DNA of 64,000 nucleotides from Haloglomus litoreum (GTDB lineage Archaea > Halobacteriota > Halobacteria > Halobacteriales > Haloarculaceae). Below the pieces are notes generated by a model. The model was not told the DNA's origin, searched no databases, and saw only the letters and a list, made by a program, of their open reading frames with translations. The translations under genes were made by a program, and so were the position numbers. Location of the stretch: assembly GCF_029338515.1 (NCBI RefSeq), contig NZ_CP119988.1, positions 1,736,001 to 1,800,000 of the forward strand, in the 5' to 3' direction. Positions 18,806 to 34,369 of this stretch are shown here, one piece after another (position 1 is the stretch's first letter; each line of letters begins with the position of its first letter).

Positions 18806-20908
18806 ATGAGTCCCAAACGTCGCGACGTCCTCCGTGCCGGGGGCGTCGCAGCCCTCCTGAGTGGCGGCCTCGCCGGCTGTATCGAGGACGCCACGGACGC
18901 GCCCGGTGAGGAGCGACCCCCATACGCCGACTGGCTGTTCGACACGGGGACCCTGTTCGAGGCGTCGTTCCGCGGCTTCTACAGTGTCGACGTGACCGCC
19001 TACCGCGAGCAGCAGGCCGCCCTGCCGGCCCCGTTCAACGAGACCGTCGAGCGGGTCGCCCGGGAGTACGACGGCGTCGCGGTCGATGACTTCGACCGGG
19101 TGACCGGGCTCGGTGCGTTCGCCGACCCCGACCCAGACGACCACGGCGACGAGCAGTACGTCATGACGAGTGTCGGGGCCGGTAGCTTCGACGTCGGTGC
19201 CGTGAGCGATGCCGTCGCGTCGGAGACGTCGCTCGAAGCGGCCGGGAGCCTCGAGGGGTACGACCTCTACACGGAGCGCAACCGCTACCGGCCGGGGGAG
19301 ACACAGGCGGCCGCCGTCGCCGACGACGCGGTTATCCTGGCGCTGGCGAACGCCGGCGGCGGCTACCGCGATTCGCCGGCGGGCGAGACCCCGCCGGAAC
19401 CATCCGGAACCCCGGCGGGCGGGGTGAGTGCCGAACGGGCCGCCGAACTGCACGCCGAGGCGGGCGCCGACGGCTCCGGTGGACTCCTCGCCGCGAACGA
19501 CCGGCTCGGCCGGCTCGCCGACGCACTCGACGGCCCAATCGTCGGCGGCCTGGCGTTCGACGCGTCCACGCTCCGCGAACGGCTCGGGTTCCACCGGCCC
19601 GATGCCAGGACCGCCACGCCGGCGGCGGACGGCCGCGACGGGAACGACGACGGCGGGGCCACCAGCGAGACGCCCCCACCCACGCCGACGGTGAGCGACT
19701 CCGGCCCCAGTCCGGTCGAGCGCCACCTCCGGCGGGTCACGCTGGGGCTGACGGCGTTCGGCGGGAGCGCCGACGCCTCGGGCGCCAGCAGCGGCGAGGT
19801 CGTCTTCCGGCTGCTGTACGAGGACGAGTCCGCCGCGAGCGACGGGGCCGACGCGGTGCGGGGCCTCCGGGACGCGCTCCGCGCCGAGACGGAGGCGTTC
19901 ACCGTGCCCGAGGTCGGCGTGACGGCCGACGGTGCGGCCGTCGCGGTGACGGTCACGGGCGACCCGTCGGCGTTCTACGAGGAACTGGGCTTCGGCGGCC
20001 GCGAGGAGCCCCGGCCGCGCGCGCCACAGGTCTCGTTCACCTTCGACCGGCGCGAGGACGGCCGCGTGACCGTCACGCACGACGGCGGCGACGAGGTCGG
20101 CACGGAGGGCACCATCGGGCTCCTCTACGAATCCGAGGACGAGGGCATCGAGCGCCGGTGGCAGCCCGACGACGGGTCCGTCACCGCCGGCGACTCGATC
20201 ACGACGGACCGGCCGGTCACCGGGATGCTCCGGGTCATCTGGACCTCCGCGAACGGTGGTTCGTCGGCGACGCTGGGGCTCTACCGCCCGCCGGAGGGGG
20301 ATGAGGTCCCCCGGGTCGCCTTCGCCTTCGAGATCGACGCCGAGAACCGGGTCACCGTCACGCACGAGGGCGGCGACGCCATCGACCGGTCCCTCGTCGT
20401 GGTCTACGACGCTCTGGGAGGCAGCGGCAAGGAGCTGTGGGAGCCCGACGACGGTGCCATCACCGCCGGCGACTCGTTCACCACCGAGAACGGCCTCGCG
20501 GAGGACGGCTCCGTGCGGGTCCTGTGGGACGGCCCCGACCCCACCGTCCTGGCGGAGTACCACACCGGGGCGACGCCGACGCCCCGTCGCACCCGGACAG
20601 CCTCGGCCGACGACACGCCGACGCGTACGCCCCGCGAGCGGACGGACACGGCGACGCCCCGGGAGACGACCGAGACGCGGACCGCGACACCGCGAGAGTC
20701 GACCGAGACGCGGACCGCGACGCCCCGGGAGGCCACAGAGACCCGGACCACGACGCCGCAGCGGACGCGGACCACGACGGCGGAGGACCGGGGAACCCCG
20801 ACCCGGACGGCGACCGACACGGGGACCGGGACCGCCACGGACACCCCGACCGCCACCGAATCCGCGACCCCGACCCCCGTCGAGGACGGGACGCCGACCA
20901 CGAACTGA
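18806..20908 (+). CDS. Tat lipoprotein with two pilin-like beta domains and a Thr-rich tail
   Basis: 700 residues. Tat signal (Arg5-Arg6) and lipobox GLAGC with Cys25 place it outside the membrane. Residues about 30-390 form an unrecognised domain that shares motifs with the next gene. Two homologous beta domains follow (PQVSFTFDRREDGRVTVTHD and PRVAFAFEIDAENRVTVTHE), each with a W-P/E-D-D-G...AGDS closing motif; they resemble the mature part of haloarchaeal type IV pilins. The last 110 residues are a Thr/Arg/Pro stalk or linker with an 11-residue tandem repeat. Function unknown; cell-surface location is well supported. Confidence 0.8.
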   Translation: MSPKRRDVLRAGGVAALLSGGLAGCIEDATDAPGEERPPYADWLFDTGTLFEASFRGFYSVDVTAYREQQAALPAPFNETVERVAREYDGVAVDDFDRVTGLGAFADPDPDDHGDEQYVMTSVGAGSFDVGAVSDAVASETSLEAAGSLEGYDLYTERNRYRPGETQAAAVADDAVILALANAGGGYRDSPAGETPPEPSGTPAGGVSAERAAELHAEAGADGSGGLLAANDRLGRLADALDGPIVGGLAFDASTLRERLGFHRPDARTATPAADGRDGNDDGGATSETPPPTPTVSDSGPSPVERHLRRVTLGLTAFGGSADASGASSGEVVFRLLYEDESAASDGADAVRGLRDALRAETEAFTVPEVGVTADGAAVAVTVTGDPSAFYEELGFGGREEPRPRAPQVSFTFDRREDGRVTVTHDGGDEVGTEGTIGLLYESEDEGIERRWQPDDGSVTAGDSITTDRPVTGMLRVIWTSANGGSSATLGLYRPPEGDEVPRVAFAFEIDAENRVTVTHEGGDAIDRSLVVVYDALGGSGKELWEPDDGAITAGDSFTTENGLAEDGSVRVLWDGPDPTVLAEYHTGATPTPRRTRTASADDTPTRTPRERTDTATPRETTETRTATPRESTETRTATPREATETRTTTPQRTRTTTAEDRGTPTRTATDTGTGTATDTPTATESATPTPVEDGTPTTN
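20663..20761 (+). repeat. 33-bp (11-residue) tandem repeat in the lipoprotein tail
   Basis: Three in-frame units at 20663-20695, 20696-20728 and 20729-20761 encode E-x-T-E-T-R-T-x-T-P-R/Q. The flanking sequence is similarly Thr-rich. Such segments in haloarchaeal surface proteins are often O-glycosylated spacers. Confidence 0.8.
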
Positions 20909-20992: not shown

Positions 20993-22405
20993 ATGGCTCC
21001 CGACAGACGCGACGTCCTCCGCGCGAGCGGCGGGTTCGCAGCCCTCCTGACCGGCCTGGCGGGCTGTACCGAGCAGATCGACGACGCGACCGGCGGCGGT
21101 GGCCCGCAGCCCCCGGGATACGCGAGCACGCTGCTCGACCCGGCTGCCCTGGTGTCGACCGAGTCGCGGTTGTTCGTCTCGGTCGACGCGTCGGCCTACG
21201 CAGAGCAGAAGGCCGCGCTCCCGCAGCAGTTCCGCGAGAGCGTCGACCAGACGACGAGCGACATCGAGGGGACCGACCCCACCGACGCCGACCGCGTGAG
21301 CGCGGTGTTCGGCACCGACCCGGGCGAACGACGGGAGTACGGCGACGAGTCGAGCGTCTACTCCGGCATCGCGACCGGGAGTTTCGACGCCGAGACGCTC
21401 CGCTCGCAGGCCGAGAGCGGCGAGCGCCTGACCAGCCGTGGCGAGTACGAGGGATACAGCCTCTACGGTGGCCCCAGCGAGTACGACTACACCCGGACGA
21501 CGGCGGTGGCCATCTCGGCCGAGGCACTGGTCGGCGCGACGGTGGACGTTCCCGACCCGAGCGGGGGGTCGGACGGATCGGAGCTGAGCGCCACCCCCGA
21601 CGGCGCCACCACCGCCATCGACGCGGTGAAGGCCCACATCGACACGTTCGGTGGCGGCGGGAGTCCGCTCGCCGATGCCGACCTCGCGACGGAGATGCTC
21701 GCACAGACGGACGGGAGCCCGCTCATCGCCGGGGCGCTCACCGACGGCGCGACCATCCGGCGGAGCTACTTCGGCGACGGCCAGGGCGGCACGCGCGAGC
21801 CCGAGGACGAACTCGGCCGCGACGTCATGGCACTCACGCAGGACCTGGCCGGCGTCGTGGGCACGGGCGCAGCCCCCGAGACCACCTCGGCCGAGACCAC
21901 CGTCCGGCTGTACTACGACAGCGAGGACGTGGTGAGCGACCGGGCCGAGACGCTCCGGTCGGCCATCGAGACGGCGAAGGCCCGCTCCGACGACGTGACG
22001 CCCCCGGAGACGGAGGTCGGCACGCAGGGCCAGGCGGTCCTCCTCACCATCACGGGCGACCCGCAGCGGCTCTCCGAGGAGTTCGGCTTCGGCGAGTCGA
22101 GCGGCGGCGGGAGTTCCCGTGGCACGCCCGTCGAGGCTCCGCAGGTCGCGTTCGCCTTCGAGTACGCCAGCGACGGCACGCTGACGATCCAACACGAGGG
22201 CGGGGACACCGTGACCACGGACCTCGACGTCAGGTACGAGGCCGACGGGGAGGTACAGATGGAGACTTGGACCGCCCCCGAGGACGGCATCTCGGCCGGC
22301 GAGACCTACACCACGGACATGGCGGTCGACTCCGGGAGCGATGTCCTCGTTCTCTGGCGCGGCGAGAACGCGAGCGCGGTGCTGGCGCAGTCCGAGGCGC
22401 CCTGA
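20993..22405 (+). CDS. Tat lipoprotein with one pilin-like beta domain (paralogue of the upstream gene)
   Basis: 470 residues, Tat signal with Arg5-Arg6 and lipobox GLAGC at Cys25; the signal peptide is nearly identical to that of the gene at 18806 (RRDVLRA..GFAALLTGLAGC). The body shares V-S/D-A-Y-x-E-Q-x-A-A-L-P, YEGYxLY and V-x-I/V-T-G-D-P motifs with that protein. A single terminal beta domain (PQVAFAFEYASDGTLTIQHE) is present and the Thr-rich tail is missing. The pair arose by tandem duplication. No function is recognised. Confidence 0.8.
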   Translation: MAPDRRDVLRASGGFAALLTGLAGCTEQIDDATGGGGPQPPGYASTLLDPAALVSTESRLFVSVDASAYAEQKAALPQQFRESVDQTTSDIEGTDPTDADRVSAVFGTDPGERREYGDESSVYSGIATGSFDAETLRSQAESGERLTSRGEYEGYSLYGGPSEYDYTRTTAVAISAEALVGATVDVPDPSGGSDGSELSATPDGATTAIDAVKAHIDTFGGGGSPLADADLATEMLAQTDGSPLIAGALTDGATIRRSYFGDGQGGTREPEDELGRDVMALTQDLAGVVGTGAAPETTSAETTVRLYYDSEDVVSDRAETLRSAIETAKARSDDVTPPETEVGTQGQAVLLTITGDPQRLSEEFGFGESSGGGSSRGTPVEAPQVAFAFEYASDGTLTIQHEGGDTVTTDLDVRYEADGEVQMETWTAPEDGISAGETYTTDMAVDSGSDVLVLWRGENASAVLAQSEAP

Positions 22406-27577: not shown

Positions 27578-29068
27578 TCAATCAGTTCTCCTGGCGAACA
27601 CACGGGACAGGACCGCAATCCCGAGCAGATGAACCACGGCCCCGGCGAGGAGATACACTCCCCACGACGAGTCACCGGCGACACCGGCGACGATGGCCTT
27701 GACCGGCCAGAACGCCGGGAACACCCCGGCGAGGAACTGGTACGGCTCCGGCACCACCGCCACCACCAGGGCGGGCCCGAGGACGACGAGGTTGACGAGT
27801 TTGCTGATGGCGATCCCCTCGATGGTGTTCGAGGCCACCGTGCCGAAGGCCAGCGCGATGATTGGCCCGCCGAGCGCTCCGACGGCTGCCGACCCCAGGA
27901 GGACCGCCGGCGGGATCGGGACGAGGCCGACGACGGCGAGTGCCGGGAGCGTCGCCGCGAGACTGAGCACGTAGGCCGAAACACCGCGATACAGCAGATA
28001 GCCGCGGCCGGAGAGCGGGCTCAGACGGTAGGCGGTGAGGACACCCTGTTCGCGGTCCTCGAGGACGAACATCCCGACGACGAACCCGTAGATGGCGGGG
28101 CCGAACAGCGCGAGACTCCCGGCTATCTCCGGGTAGAAATCCTCCAGCGTGAGGATGGGAGCGCTCAGGTCCGCCACCGTCGGGGCGGCGAGTCGGACGA
28201 CGGCGGCGAGTGCGAGCGGCCCGACGGCCGCGATGCCCAGCATCGGGTCCCGGACCCAGTTCCGGAGGTCCGCGACCACCATCCCCAGCCAGGGCGACCG
28301 CGACTGGCCCCAGGAGGGCCGCTGGTGCTGCCGGGCGGCCGGGGTCTCCTGACGGCCCAGTTGCCGCCTGGGGTCCCCACCGCGGACGATGTGCCGACGG
28401 AAGGTCCGGCGCGCGCCGAGGTACGCGACCGCGTTCCCCAAGAGGAGGTAGCCGAAGCCGTAGCCCACCTCCCACGGTGCGAGCGGGCGGAAGCCGCCTT
28501 CGACGAGGAGGAGCACTGGCTGGGCGGGCAGCAGGTAGAACAGGGGCGTCTCGACGAGGCCGACGTACCCGAACAGCGGGAGGAACAGAACCGTCCCCCA
28601 GCCGACCGCGCTGATGAAGTACTCGTTGACGGAGTCGTACCGGGCGACCGCGGTGAAGCCGATCAGCACGAAGAGCGACGCCGAGAGTGCGACGCCGGGG
28701 ACGAGGACCGCCAGCCCGGGAACCCGGCCGTGGCCGACGACGGCGACGAGCGTCGTGGCGAGGACCGCGAGGACCGACAGCGTTCCGGCCTTCGAGACGA
28801 GGTACCCCCGGTCGCCGATGGGCGACGTCACCAGCGCGTCCAGCACGCCCTCCTCCTTCTCGAACAGGACCACCGCGGCGATGAAGTAGAACCCGAGTAC
28901 CGTCGGGTCGGTCACGATGAGCAACACTGCGGCGTCGGTGCGGAGTTCCGGCCCGAGCAGGCGGAGTCCGACGATGAACACCACCGTGAGGACCGCGTAG
29001 ACGGTGTAGAACCCGTATCTGACCTGGAGCCGAGCGTCCCACGCCATCATCGACCCGAGTCGTCTCAC
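27578..29068 (-). CDS. ABC-2 type transporter permease, double-domain fusion
   Basis: About 496 residues with roughly twelve hydrophobic helices in two six-helix halves. The first half begins MMAWDARLQVRYGFYTVYAV and the second LGMVVADLRNWVRDPMLGI; each has an exporter-type segment with acidic turn (VVLFEKEEGVLDALVTSPI and GMFVLEDREQGVLTAYRLSP). A hydrophilic 50-residue linker joins them. Possible starts are GTG 29068, ATG 29050 or GTG 29119; 29068 is a compromise. It is the last gene of a five-gene exporter operon and would partner the ATPase encoded immediately upstream. Confidence 0.8.
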   Translation of the reverse strand: MRRLGSMMAWDARLQVRYGFYTVYAVLTVVFIVGLRLLGPELRTDAAVLLIVTDPTVLGFYFIAAVVLFEKEEGVLDALVTSPIGDRGYLVSKAGTLSVLAVLATTLVAVVGHGRVPGLAVLVPGVALSASLFVLIGFTAVARYDSVNEYFISAVGWGTVLFLPLFGYVGLVETPLFYLLPAQPVLLLVEGGFRPLAPWEVGYGFGYLLLGNAVAYLGARRTFRRHIVRGGDPRRQLGRQETPAARQHQRPSWGQSRSPWLGMVVADLRNWVRDPMLGIAAVGPLALAAVVRLAAPTVADLSAPILTLEDFYPEIAGSLALFGPAIYGFVVGMFVLEDREQGVLTAYRLSPLSGRGYLLYRGVSAYVLSLAATLPALAVVGLVPIPPAVLLGSAAVGALGGPIIALAFGTVASNTIEGIAISKLVNLVVLGPALVVAVVPEPYQFLAGVFPAFWPVKAIVAGVAGDSSWGVYLLAGAVVHLLGIAVLSRVFARRTD

Positions 29069-29135
29069 GGCGCGGGCACCTCCCAGGGGACATGGGCGGC
29101 CCACACCCACGGCCGCCACGTCGACGCGGTCCCCG

Positions 29136-29990
29136 TCATGTCAGCTCGGTCCCCGTCACCTCGATGAACACGTCCTCGAGGGTCGCCTCGTCCGTGTGGA
29201 TCGTCTCTATCTGGCCGCCCTGGAGGAGCTGCTGGAACCCCGAATCGTCACCGAGGTCCGTGAGGGGGAACTGTCGTTCGGTGAGAGTTCCGTCGGTGCG
29301 GTACTCGACCCGGACGGTCGGCGTGCCGTGTTCGAGTTTCAGCGTTCGCGGCGTGTCGACGGCCGCGAGGCGGCCATCGACGATGAACGCGACGCGGTCA
29401 CAGAGCCGGTCGGCGACCGCCATGTCGTGGGTCGTCAGGAAGACGGTCGTCCCGTCGTCCTGGAGGTCGGTGATGACGCGCTGCACTGCCCGCGCGTTGC
29501 TCGGGTCGATACCCGCCGTCGGTTCGTCGAGGAAGACCAGCCCGGGGTCGTGGACGAGCGCGCGGACGAAGTTCAGCCGCATCTGCATCCCCTTCGAGTA
29601 CGTCCCCACGCGACGGTCGGCCGCGTCGGCCAGTCCGACCCGTTCGAGGAGGTCCGTCGGGTCACGTGCGAACCCCCCGTGGAGCGAGGCGAACAGTTCG
29701 AGGTTCTCGCTGCCGGTCAGCTTCCGGTAGAGGTTCGGCGTCTCGGCGGAGACGCCGATACGCTCGTACAGCGTACGCCCCCACTCGCGGACCGGCCGGT
29801 CGAGCACCGTCGCGTCGCCGTCGTAGTCGTCGAGGAGCCCGATGAGCACCTTCTGGGTGGTGCTCTTCCCCGCGCCGCTCGGACCGAGGAACCCGAACAC
29901 CTCGCCGTCCCGCACCGAGAAGTCGAGGCCGCGGAGTGCGGGCCGGTCGGCCCCCGAGTACGTGTACCGCAGTCCACGGACGTCGATCAT
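29136..29990 (-). CDS. ABC transporter ATP-binding protein (exporter, ABC-2 type)
   Basis: 284 residues with Walker A GPSGAGKST at about 36-44, signature YSKGMQMRLNFVRAL and Walker B LVFLDEPTAGIDPSNAR. The signature Y-S-K-G-M-x-x-R is typical of exporter ATPases of the CcmA/DrrA type. The stretch after about residue 215 is a C-terminal regulatory extension. It is co-directional with the double permease and separated from the upstream ATPase by 75 bp. Confidence 0.92.
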   Translation of the reverse strand: MIDVRGLRYTYSGADRPALRGLDFSVRDGEVFGFLGPSGAGKSTTQKVLIGLLDDYDGDATVLDRPVREWGRTLYERIGVSAETPNLYRKLTGSENLELFASLHGGFARDPTDLLERVGLADAADRRVGTYSKGMQMRLNFVRALVHDPGLVFLDEPTAGIDPSNARAVQRVITDLQDDGTTVFLTTHDMAVADRLCDRVAFIVDGRLAAVDTPRTLKLEHGTPTVRVEYRTDGTLTERQFPLTDLGDDSGFQQLLQGGQIETIHTDEATLEDVFIEVTGTELT

Positions 29991-30064
29991 TGTCGGGGAG
30001 ACGGTGGCGTGTGGGTAATACCTGGGGCATCGCCCACTCCGGCACCGGCAGCGTCACGGGTCCC

Positions 30065-30805
30065 TCATTCCGCTTCCGAGGCCGCCTCCACCACCCGCTC
30101 GACGTAGAACTCCTGCAGGTCGTCGTCCGGCACGTCGATGTCGTCCCGCGGCGCGTCCAGCAGCACCTCGCCGTCGTGGACGATGGTCAGGTGGTCCACG
30201 GCGGCGGCGAACTGCCCGAGGTTGTGGGTCGAGACGACCACCCCGTGGCCGGCGTCCCGGTACTCAGCCAGGAACTCGACCAACCGGAGCTTCGTCACGT
30301 CGTCCAGGTCCCCGAGCGGCTCGTCCAGCAGCAGGTACGCGGGCTCCTTCTGGAGCGCGAGCGCGAGGTCGAGCTTCCGGCTGTAGCCGCCCGACAGCTC
30401 CCCGGCGATGCGGTCGCGGACCACGTCGAGACCGAGTCGATCGAGCACCGTCTCGGCCCACCCATCGTCGGCGGCCGCCAGCGCGCCGAACACCGACAGG
30501 TTCTCCGCGACCGTCAGCTGGTCGTAGTGTGAGGGACGCTGGAACGCCGTCCCGAGGCGCACGTCGGGAACCGACACCTCGCCGGCTGAGGGCTCGACCA
30601 GTCCCAGGAGCGTCCGCAGCAGCGTCGTCTTCCCGGAGCCGTTCGGGCCGACGAGGCAGTGGAAGGTCTCCGGGTCGACGGTCACGTCGACCCCGTCGAG
30701 GGCCATCACGGTCCCGTAGCGCTTGCGCAACCCCGAGACGCGGATGGGGTCGATAGCGGTCGGGTCCGTGTGCGGCATCGTCGACGATGGTTGGTCCCCG
30801 CTCAT
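30065..30805 (-). CDS. ABC transporter ATP-binding protein
   Basis: 246 residues with Walker A GPNGSGKTT, signature LSGGYSRKLDLALAL and Walker B YLLLDEPLGDLDD. The Gln of the Q-loop (AFQRPSHYDQLTV) and a switch His (VVSTHNLGQ) are present. It begins 1 nt after the stop of the permease gene at 30807 and presumably serves that permease. The N-terminal 20 residues are a variable extension. Confidence 0.92.
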   Translation of the reverse strand: MSGDQPSSTMPHTDPTAIDPIRVSGLRKRYGTVMALDGVDVTVDPETFHCLVGPNGSGKTTLLRTLLGLVEPSAGEVSVPDVRLGTAFQRPSHYDQLTVAENLSVFGALAAADDGWAETVLDRLGLDVVRDRIAGELSGGYSRKLDLALALQKEPAYLLLDEPLGDLDDVTKLRLVEFLAEYRDAGHGVVVSTHNLGQFAAAVDHLTIVHDGEVLLDAPRDDIDVPDDDLQEFYVERVVEAASEAE

Positions 30806-30806
30806 C

Positions 30807-31874
30807 TCAGGTCCCCCGCTCGTAGGCGAGCAGCGAGAGCTTCAGCGGCACGAGCATCGCGAGCGCGAACAGGGCGATACCGGCGAGCCAGGTCGCGAAC
30901 TCCGTCACGGGGAGGCCCCGGAGCGCGGTCCCCCGCACCGTGAGCATCGCGTAGTGGGTCGGCACCAGTCGGATGACCTCGCGCCGGAGCGGCGAGAAGA
31001 ACCCGACGGGGTAGACGAGCCCGGAGAACCCGAGGAAGCCGAACAGGACGAGCACGTTGAACAGCCGGCCCGTCGTCCCGAAGCCCGACGCGAAGGTGAC
31101 GGCCGTGGCGATGGCCCCGCACGCGAGGAACGTCAGGCCGTACGCCAGGACCGCCCCGGGTGCGAGCAGGTTCACGCCGTAGCCCAGCGCGACGCCGATG
31201 CCGTGGAAGACGAGCAAGGGTACCGCGAGCAGGGCCGTGAAGAAGGCGAGCTTCGCCGCCACCACCGTATCGAGGGAGGTCTCCACCCGGAGCCGGTCGA
31301 GGACGGCCTCCTCGCGGGCGAGGTTGTACGGCAGGTAGGCGAACGCGAACGTGAGGACGATGATCATCAGGAACGTCGGGAGCAGGTACGAGGAGAGCTT
31401 GCGCTCCTCGCCGGCGATCTCGCGCTGGACCACCACGCGCTTGTCGAGCTGGCGGTTCATCGTCCCCGCGACGACGCTGACGAGGGCCTGCGACGGCTCC
31501 CGGTACGGTGTCACGTCGCCGTCGATGGTGACGGTCATGTTCACCTGCTCGACCTCGGGGTCGTCGAGGTCCGGCGGCACCGAGACGACGGCGTACACCG
31601 ATTCGCGCCGGAGGTCGCGCATCGCGGCGGCCTCGGAGTCGTACTGGATGGGCTTCGAGAACAGCCGGAACGACGCCGCGACCACGTCGTACTCGGAGTC
31701 GGAGACATCCTCCCCCGCGACGACGGCGACCGGCGCGTCCTTCGGGAGCACGTGCTGGAAGAACACGGAGGCGCCCGCGAAGGCGGCCGGCAGGAGTATC
31801 AGGACGAACAGCAGCGCCAGCACGCGGTGTCGGCTCCACAGCAGCTCCTTCCGGAGGACGGTTCGCAGGCTCAT
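30807..31874 (-). CDS. ABC-2 family transporter permease
   Basis: 355 residues. One N-terminal helix (VLALLFVLILLPAAFAGASVFF) is followed by an extracytoplasmic domain of about 140 residues and then five helices ending LALAMLVPLKLSLLAYERGT. This is the ABC2_membrane_3 (YhgE/DrrB-like) layout with a large external loop. The ATG overlaps the stop of the upstream gene (ATGA), indicating coupled translation, and the ATPase gene follows after 1 nt. The cargo is unknown. Confidence 0.85.
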   Translation of the reverse strand: MSLRTVLRKELLWSRHRVLALLFVLILLPAAFAGASVFFQHVLPKDAPVAVVAGEDVSDSEYDVVAASFRLFSKPIQYDSEAAAMRDLRRESVYAVVSVPPDLDDPEVEQVNMTVTIDGDVTPYREPSQALVSVVAGTMNRQLDKRVVVQREIAGEERKLSSYLLPTFLMIIVLTFAFAYLPYNLAREEAVLDRLRVETSLDTVVAAKLAFFTALLAVPLLVFHGIGVALGYGVNLLAPGAVLAYGLTFLACGAIATAVTFASGFGTTGRLFNVLVLFGFLGFSGLVYPVGFFSPLRREVIRLVPTHYAMLTVRGTALRGLPVTEFATWLAGIALFALAMLVPLKLSLLAYERGT

Positions 31875-32995
31875 GCGGGCTCCTCGCGGGTCGCGTCGAT
31901 GTCACCGCTCGTCGGTTCGGGCGCGGCGAGCGACTGCGGCTCGGGCTGGTTCCGGAACAGACCCCGGACGAGAACCCGGAGGCCCCGGGGCGAGGACTCG
32001 TAGCTCGTGACGACCGTCCGGCCCTCGACGTCGAGGCGGACCCGCCGGAGTTCCGTCTTCAGCGTCCGGTTCGAGGATTCGAACAGGTAGAACGACTGCC
32101 CCGCGGACATGATGTTCCGCACGTCGTCGGCGCTCTCGGCGTCGGCGCTCGTGATGCGGATACGGACGCGGATGTCCGGCGTCGCGCTGGCGTTCCCCCG
32201 ATCGGTCCGGTTCAGCGTGTAGCTCGTCCCGACGTACTCGACGGTGCGGACGGCCGGCCCGACGAACGGGTAGTCGGGGACCGTCTCCGGCCGGAAGCGG
32301 TAGGCGAACCGGACGTAGCCGTCGTCGGTGTCCTCGTAGCGCCGGCGGAGTTCGCCGCCGAGCGTCGTGGGGTCGGCCTCCGGGTCGGCACGGGCGATGG
32401 CCACGTCGACGGCGTCCGAGACTGCCGTCCCGTTCCCGATGGCCAGCAGGCGCGGTCCCTCGCGCGGGATGGGTCCGCCCTCGGCGCCACCATCGAGGAC
32501 GGCGACGGCCGGGCCACGCTCCGAGCGGTAGATGGTGAACCCGCGGCGCGTCTCCGTCTCGAACGTGACGCCGCGGCGGGCGGCGAGGGCGTCGGTGGTC
32601 TCCTCGGCGCTCCAGTTCGCGACGACCAGTCGGGCGCCGTACGGCTCGCCGTGGCGGCCGAAGTAGGTGACGTGGCTCGCGGCCGCCGGGTCGAGACTCG
32701 CGTTCGCCGGCGGGTCGAGCGCCAGCGTCCGGAGGTAGGGCGGCCCGCTGTAGAACTGGACGGCACCCTGGAAGGCGAGCGAGGCACGCGTCCCGTTCCT
32801 CACGGCGGGGTCCGAGCGGAACTCGGTCGTGTTCAGTGTGCCGACGTAGTCGCTCCCGGCAGGGACGTTCTCGGTCGGTTCGTACGGGTCGGGTGGTGGC
32901 GGCTCGGCCCCGAGGACGACCGCTCCGACACAGACACCGCCGAGGAGCAGCGCCACGGCACCGGCGACGGCCAGCGCCTGTGTGTCCGGGGTCAC
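31871..32995 (-). CDS. N-terminally anchored extracytoplasmic protein of the exporter operon
   Basis: 374 residues from a GTG. A single N-terminal hydrophobic helix (ALAVAGAVALLLGGVCVGAVVLG) anchors a large outside domain with repeated strands and N-glycosylation sequons (NTTEF, NRTD, NRTL, NASLD). Near its end a hydrophobic stretch SYESSPRGLRVLVRGLF precedes a Pro/Glu-rich tail. No family is recognised. It is the first gene of the operon and overlaps the permease start, so it is likely a periplasmic-side (pseudoperiplasmic) partner or substrate receptor of that exporter. Confidence 0.7.
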   Translation of the reverse strand: MTPDTQALAVAGAVALLLGGVCVGAVVLGAEPPPPDPYEPTENVPAGSDYVGTLNTTEFRSDPAVRNGTRASLAFQGAVQFYSGPPYLRTLALDPPANASLDPAAASHVTYFGRHGEPYGARLVVANWSAEETTDALAARRGVTFETETRRGFTIYRSERGPAVAVLDGGAEGGPIPREGPRLLAIGNGTAVSDAVDVAIARADPEADPTTLGGELRRRYEDTDDGYVRFAYRFRPETVPDYPFVGPAVRTVEYVGTSYTLNRTDRGNASATPDIRVRIRITSADAESADDVRNIMSAGQSFYLFESSNRTLKTELRRVRLDVEGRTVVTSYESSPRGLRVLVRGLFRNQPEPQSLAAPEPTSGDIDATREEPA

Positions 32996-33157
32996 GGGGA
33001 CGCACCTCGTCCGGCCCCGAGGGCGGGAGGAGAGAGGGACGCGGCGGGCGGGGAACCTGCCATGGCCGTGCGGTCGTCGGGTCACGGTTTAGGCCTGTCG
33101 GGACCCACGCCGGCGAGAGCCGGGAGACACATACCGGAGCGCTCCGAGGCGCCGACG

Positions 33158-34369
33158 ATGACCGGGCCCTCCACGCTCAGCCGCCGCGGCGCGCTCGCCG
33201 CTGGCGGTGGCCTCCTCGCCAGCATCGCCGCAGCGGGCCTCACCCCCGCGCAGGTCCGCCCAGAGATGCGCCTCGCGCCGACGGCCGACTTCGGCTCCTG
33301 GCCCGCCCGCAAGCGTGGCCCCCGGCGGACCGGCTACCAGCCCGAGCCGGGGCCCCGGTCGGGCGCGAGCGTGCGCTGGCGGTTCCTGACCCCCCGAGAC
33401 CCGACCGCATCGCCGGGCATCGTCGCCACGCCCCAGCAGGTGCTCGCGGTCGGCGCATCGTCCACGTTCGCGCTGCGCCCCGACGACGGCTCGCTCGCCT
33501 GGCAGACCGGCCACCGCGAGCGCGACCCCATCGGCCGCGACGGCCGCAACGAGTTCGTCCAGTCCGGGCCGCAGCTGGCGGCCGGCCACGCGCTCACGGT
33601 CGCGGACGTCTCCCTGTACGGGCTGGACGGTTCGACGGGGTCCGGCGAGTGGGCGTACGCGACGAACAGCAGTTTCCGCGAGGTACTGGCCGTCGGCAAC
33701 ACCGTCTTCCTCTTCTCGCTTGTCGACGGCGTCGACCGGCTCGTGGCCCTCTCGGCCGAGACGGGACTCCCGTACTGGCAGCTCGAGGAGCGGGTCGCCC
33801 CGCTGGCGTACGCGCCGGACGAGGGGCTGCTGGTGACCGTCCAGCTGTTCGACGACCTCGCGGAGGGGAGCTTCGAGGGGCGGGACCCCGCGACCGGCTC
33901 CCAGGAGTGGTCGACGACCATCGAGGGGATGTCGTCGCTGGCCGGTTCCCCGGCCGTCGCGAGGGGGCGGGTCTACCTCGCTGCCGGGTCGGTGTACGCC
34001 CTCGATGCGACCGACGGGACGGAGGTCTGGCGGGCGCCGTTCGATACCGAGCGGTTCGGCGACCCGGTGACCGACGGCGACCGCGTCTACGTCACGAACG
34101 ACCAGGGTGCCGCGGCGTTCGACGCGGCGACCGGCGAGGAGCGATGGGTTGCTGACGTGCCGGTCAACGGCTTCGCGACGCCCGCCGTCGCCGACGACCG
34201 CATCTACCTTCCAGTCGAGGACGGCGTGGTGGCACTCGCGACGGGCGACGGCGCCCGGGCGTTCGACGTATCCTTCCCGGGCGGCCCGCCATCGGGGATG
34301 GCCGTCGCGGACGGCACGCTCTACGTCCGCAACGAGCGCGGGGTCTTCGCGCTGGAGGGGGAGCGATGA
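33158..34369 (+). CDS. secreted PQQ/beta-propeller-repeat protein (Tat substrate)
   Basis: 403 residues. The Tat signal LSRRGALAAGGGLLASIAAAG has no lipobox cysteine. The mature part is a beta-propeller of PQQ-like repeats (for example VYALDATDGTEVWRAPFD, AAFDAATGEERWVADVP, LVALSAETGLPYWQLEERV). PQQ-binding residues cannot be confirmed by eye, and many such haloarchaeal propellers are not PQQ enzymes. Start chosen at the ATG that opens the Tat peptide. It overlaps the next gene by 4 nt (ATGA). Confidence 0.85.
   Translation: MTGPSTLSRRGALAAGGGLLASIAAAGLTPAQVRPEMRLAPTADFGSWPARKRGPRRTGYQPEPGPRSGASVRWRFLTPRDPTASPGIVATPQQVLAVGASSTFALRPDDGSLAWQTGHRERDPIGRDGRNEFVQSGPQLAAGHALTVADVSLYGLDGSTGSGEWAYATNSSFREVLAVGNTVFLFSLVDGVDRLVALSAETGLPYWQLEERVAPLAYAPDEGLLVTVQLFDDLAEGSFEGRDPATGSQEWSTTIEGMSSLAGSPAVARGRVYLAAGSVYALDATDGTEVWRAPFDTERFGDPVTDGDRVYVTNDQGAAAFDAATGEERWVADVPVNGFATPAVADDRIYLPVEDGVVALATGDGARAFDVSFPGGPPSGMAVADGTLYVRNERGVFALEGER

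Follow-up and report, generated by a model that had tools for sequence, protein, structure and literature searches.

The five-gene block on the minus strand at positions 27578-32995 of the window (the whole stretch of 64,000 nucleotides analysed here, one piece of the 4.7-Mb, ~70% GC genome of Haloglomus litoreum) is best read as two independent exporters lying side by side: A-B-C, a type V exporter probably handling a lipid or another hydrophobic cargo, and D-E, an acquired efflux cassette. We give this reading as a whole a probability slightly above one half (about 0.55); the gene content of the locus, the linkage of A-B-C, the absence of D-E from congeners and the predicted folds are regarded as demonstrated. 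All five open reading frames (Table 1) were confirmed; they score well as coding sequence and their GC3 is high. The preliminary description of co-directional genes for an anchored protein, a permease, an ATPase, a second ATPase and a double-length permease was accurate in each of these points. Gene A shares 4 bases with B and a single base separates B from C, whereas gaps of 74 and 85 bases lie between C and D and between D and E, respectively. A PQQ/BamB-like beta-propeller gene (33266-34369) is divergent from A, the upstream region being common to both; this gene is present in two genomes of the collection (G001 and G002) and was not called in G003 or in Haloglomus irregulare.

Table 1. Features of the exporter locus, in positions of the window
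Feature	Positions	Strand	Remarks
Gene A, extracytoplasmic protein with an anchor, 374 aa, GTG start	31871-32995	-	Helix at 10-28, then TP0453-like alpha/beta ectodomain (predicted); unnamed family of Halobacteria
Gene B, ABC-2 permease of 355 aa with an ectodomain separating the first two of its six helices	30807-31874	-	PF12698, E 1.6e-20; type V exporter fold (model pLDDT 85.5)
Gene C, ABC ATPase that pairs with B, 246 aa	30065-30805	-	PF00005; adjoins B in relatives
Gene D, ABC ATPase, DrrA-like, 284 aa, partner of E	29136-29990	-	PF00005; drrA 227 bits, below cut-off; upstream of E elsewhere
Gene E, double permease in one fused chain, 490 aa with 12 hydrophobic segments	27578-29050	-	PF24686, E 1.8e-42; N half of fluoroquinolone-exporter type
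Replaced segment	27450-30064	.	Holds D-E in the window; congeners have an oppositely oriented HD-domain gene there
Candidate promoter element of A-B-C, GACAGGCCTAAACC	33086-33099	-	GACAGGCATAAACC in congener L047; sequence comparison

A-B-C is a conserved haloarchaeal unit. Gene B was found in 43 of the 292 genomes of the class (19 of 78 genera) and gene A in 57 of them (25 genera); A lies directly upstream of B, on the same strand, in 36 of 45 B loci, and C directly downstream of B in the neighbourhoods examined. The three genes are also carried by Halobacterium salinarum (L081). Nine B loci had no detected A, some of them at contig ends or on split contigs, and 44 of 80 matches to the A family stand alone, indicating that not every B-C pair requires A.

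From their domains and the model of B, B and C are predicted to form an ABC-2, or type V, exporter, with B as the membrane domain (PF12698, 73.9 bits over a cut-off of 31.6) and C as the nucleotide-binding domain (PF00005, E 3.8e-25, 89.5 bits over a cut-off of 25). The model of B matches many type V chains (Z 17-22). The best is ABCH-9C of Tribolium in its ceramide-bound form, which aligns with almost the entire chain at Z 22.1, although the rmsd is large; ABCG, KpsM, NosY and ABCA chains come next. The sequence profile of B found no solved structure. For C, sequence comparison places the nucleotide domains of ABCA lipid transporters (ABCA4, A7, A3 and A1) closest among solved structures. B-C resembles the type V or NatB-type exporters (NatAB, LnrLMN, ABCH-9C, ABCG and ABCA) in the fold and ectodomain position of B and in the nucleotide domain of C, whereas A-B-C differs from them in its separate anchored partner, A, and in its archaeal lineage.

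The anchored protein had been described as matching no known family, and this was borne out by Pfam and NCBIfam, in neither of which a family for A was found; outside Halobacteria only marginal matches were obtained. By sequence, A found just two designed proteins among solved structures (E above 0.1). The relatives of A have the ectodomain in common and the anchor varies, about half of them having a plain N-terminal helix and about half a lipobox, often of Tat type. Nearly every relative is anchored in one of these two ways, and the property that the family retains is its tethering at the outer face; no conserved set of catalytic residues was found in A. One relative of 665 aa (L058, 8476-10473), directly upstream of B, carries two tandem ectodomains. 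Membership of A in DUF3352 (PF11832) was considered and rejected: the likeness was weak and confined to two of 48 A relatives (E 0.013), the window's own A was unmatched, and no match over the cut-off was obtained in 247 genomes of the phylum. A is a conserved, unnamed family, and it is the part of the locus worth pursuing.

Two tandem genes elsewhere in the window (18806-20908 and 20993-22405) encode Tat-lipoproteins, 35% alike, with an N-terminal part distantly related to A followed by Pilin_N-like domains. The relation to A was detected with a profile E of 9.4e-6 for the first of them, and with a profile-profile probability of 91.6%; the pair occupies the same region in all four congener genomes.

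Structure prediction of the anchored protein, proposed as a check in the preliminary description, yielded a confident model of mixed alpha/beta architecture (built with 48 relatives; pLDDT 80.6, pTM 0.79). Against solved structures its sole clear match was TP0453 of Treponema pallidum (PDB 3k8g-3k8j), with a Foldseek E of 6.9e-8 and a probability of 1.00; the match spans residues 35-343 of the predicted fold and superposes 225 residues with Z 11.4, an rmsd of 4.5 A and 12-13% identity, against Z 5.2 for the next fold. The TiME, RseB and PsbP folds, with Z near 5 and well below TP0453, were taken as background. A search to E 10 with a profile of 48 A sequences did not recover any chain of TP0453, and with no detectable sequence relation the two proteins have only the fold in common. 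TP0453, which enters membranes by way of amphipathic helices and has been proposed as a carrier of lipids and glycolipids (PMC5421087), is like A a membrane-tethered extracytoplasmic protein. Unlike TP0453, A has in the window a transmembrane anchor and partners an ABC exporter, and it belongs to archaea.

The predicted fold of A, the nearest structural neighbour of B and the nearest relatives of C all hint at a lipid or hydrophobic substrate, and by analogy the most likely cargo of A-B-C would be a lipid or another hydrophobic or amphipathic molecule. Each of these three hints is a likeness only. Type V exporters handle many cargoes, including drugs and sugars, the rmsd and the identity of the match between A and TP0453 (given above) also weigh against a lipid cargo, and the carrier role of TP0453 is itself proposed and unproven. 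No consistent lipid-gene neighbour of A-B-C was seen in the neighbourhoods read. In such a scheme, B would dimerise and be powered by two C subunits, and A, tethered outside beside the exporter, would take over the emerging molecule, acting like the proposed lipid carrier TP0453, or would open and close over the exit. A more specific proposal is tentative, and we would sooner expect it to fail than to hold: A-B-C would be an undescribed archaeal machine for the export of lipids or glycolipids, its cargo being received on the outer side of the membrane by an anchored, TP0453-like carrier of a family absent from databases.

Alternatively, A-B-C may be a protective pump for the efflux of drugs or peptides, comparable to LnrLMN or NatAB, with A acting as a sensor or capturing substrate, and so reporting stress on the envelope. 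B has the layout of NatB and LnrMN, and NatAB and LnrLMN are type V/VI hybrids with the ectodomain between helices 1 and 2 (PMC11466899); the patchy presence of B (19 of 78 genera) would also fit a role in defence or stress. However, neither a sensor kinase nor a regulator was consistently found beside A-B-C in the neighbourhoods read, and the fold of A matches a proposed lipid carrier and not a sensor. Such a pump is less likely than not.

A comparison with NosDFY, in which A-B-C would be an energised transporter that supplies a maturing extracytoplasmic enzyme with one of its parts, and A the partner at the outer face, is considerably less probable. The plan of extracytoplasmic partner, type V permease and ATPase is common to both systems, and NosY matches the model of B with Z 18.3. 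On the other hand, A is predicted to be an alpha/beta protein like TP0453 and lacks the beta-helix of NosD, no conserved enzyme neighbour was found in the neighbourhoods read, and the locus has no nitrous oxide reductase cluster.

The second exporter, D-E, differs from A-B-C in distribution and in likely function. E carries the FLQE3 permease domain (PF24686, 146 bits over a cut-off of 60), and its description as a double-length permease with fused halves proved right, since one half is homologous to the other (41% over 63 aa, E 7e-7). In every intact relative E is likewise one fused open reading frame of about 482-516 aa; fusion is thus the rule in haloarchaea and not special to the window. 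A search of solved structures with the sequence profile of E returned none. The closest known system, the mycobacterial Rv2686c-Rv2687c-Rv2688c, shares with D-E the PF24686 permease domain and the combination of an ATPase with two permease halves, but encodes the halves in two separate genes, whereas D-E has both in one polypeptide. Overexpression of Rv2686c-2688c in a mycobacterial host lowers quinolone accumulation, and deletion of a homologue was without effect (PMC8829022). A pair of D subunits on a single fused E permease would make a complete, self-contained efflux pump, which would export drugs.

E was found in 20 of the 292 class genomes, spread over 18 of 78 genera, a few of these copies being fragments, and D lies upstream of it here and in nearly all relatives; one E permease (L060, 6979-8526) has no detectable adjoining D. 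A TetR-like gene stands next to D-E in eight of 18 neighbourhoods (L111, L112, L113, L114, L115, L118, L119 and L120), four of them confirmed by Pfam and one, beside a plasmid-borne E copy in Halobaculum limi, annotated as TetR. In the window, no TetR regulator lies beside D-E. The tree of E mixes families and does not track taxonomy. D-E is a patchy cassette of fluoroquinolone-exporter type that moves between genomes.

That D-E is separate from A-B-C is evident among the nearest relatives of the window genome; in the collection, Haloglomus halophilum and Haloglomus irregulare are among them. Three congeners (L047, L048 and L049) carry A, B and C at 67-90% identity, in unchanged order and setting, and lack D-E; between C and a gene for an FAD-linked oxidase they have instead an HD-domain gene, read from the other strand. 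In the site alignment, homology to the window is lost precisely where C ends and returns where the FAD-linked oxidase gene ends, in both cases at the stop codon, except that in L049 the match on the C side extends ~30 bases further. The HD-domain gene was not found elsewhere in the window's genome, which holds only a 37% relative, so D-E takes its place: the cassette was acquired in the window species at a site where relatives carry the HD-domain gene. GC and GC3 of D-E are close to those of A-C, and base composition thus gives no sign of a recent transfer. In Haloglomus irregulare (L070), a different gene follows C.

Neither A nor B was found near E in the 18 other E neighbourhoods read, and Halorarius litoreus (G011), which has both sets, carries them ~1.5 Mb apart. 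B and E occur together in four of the 292 genomes, against 2.9 expected (P 0.34). The absence of D-E from congeners, its lack of linkage elsewhere and the chance-level co-occurrence indicate that the adjacency in the window is a local event. These neighbourhoods rule out a conserved five-gene system, an outcome that the preliminary description had itself named as counting against the novelty of the block, and with co-occurrence at chance level they leave the suggestion of sequential handling by two exporters of one operon unsupported. The earlier idea of an unknown anchored partner in a two-exporter system survives in part: the partner is unnamed, but it belongs to B-C only, and the joint system does not stand. 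That all five genes form one functional operon exporting a complex molecule in two steps, as their shared strand and order, the gaps of 74 and 85 bases around D and the lack of an opposing gene in between might suggest, is very improbable and already largely refuted by these same comparisons.

Little is known about how lipids and other hydrophobic compounds reach the archaeal cell surface. Recognising D-E as an acquired neighbour keeps a false "five-gene system" out of annotation. A-B-C, for its part, is a conserved set of three genes that can be deleted, its partner family is unnamed, and the predicted fold gives it a concrete hypothesis.
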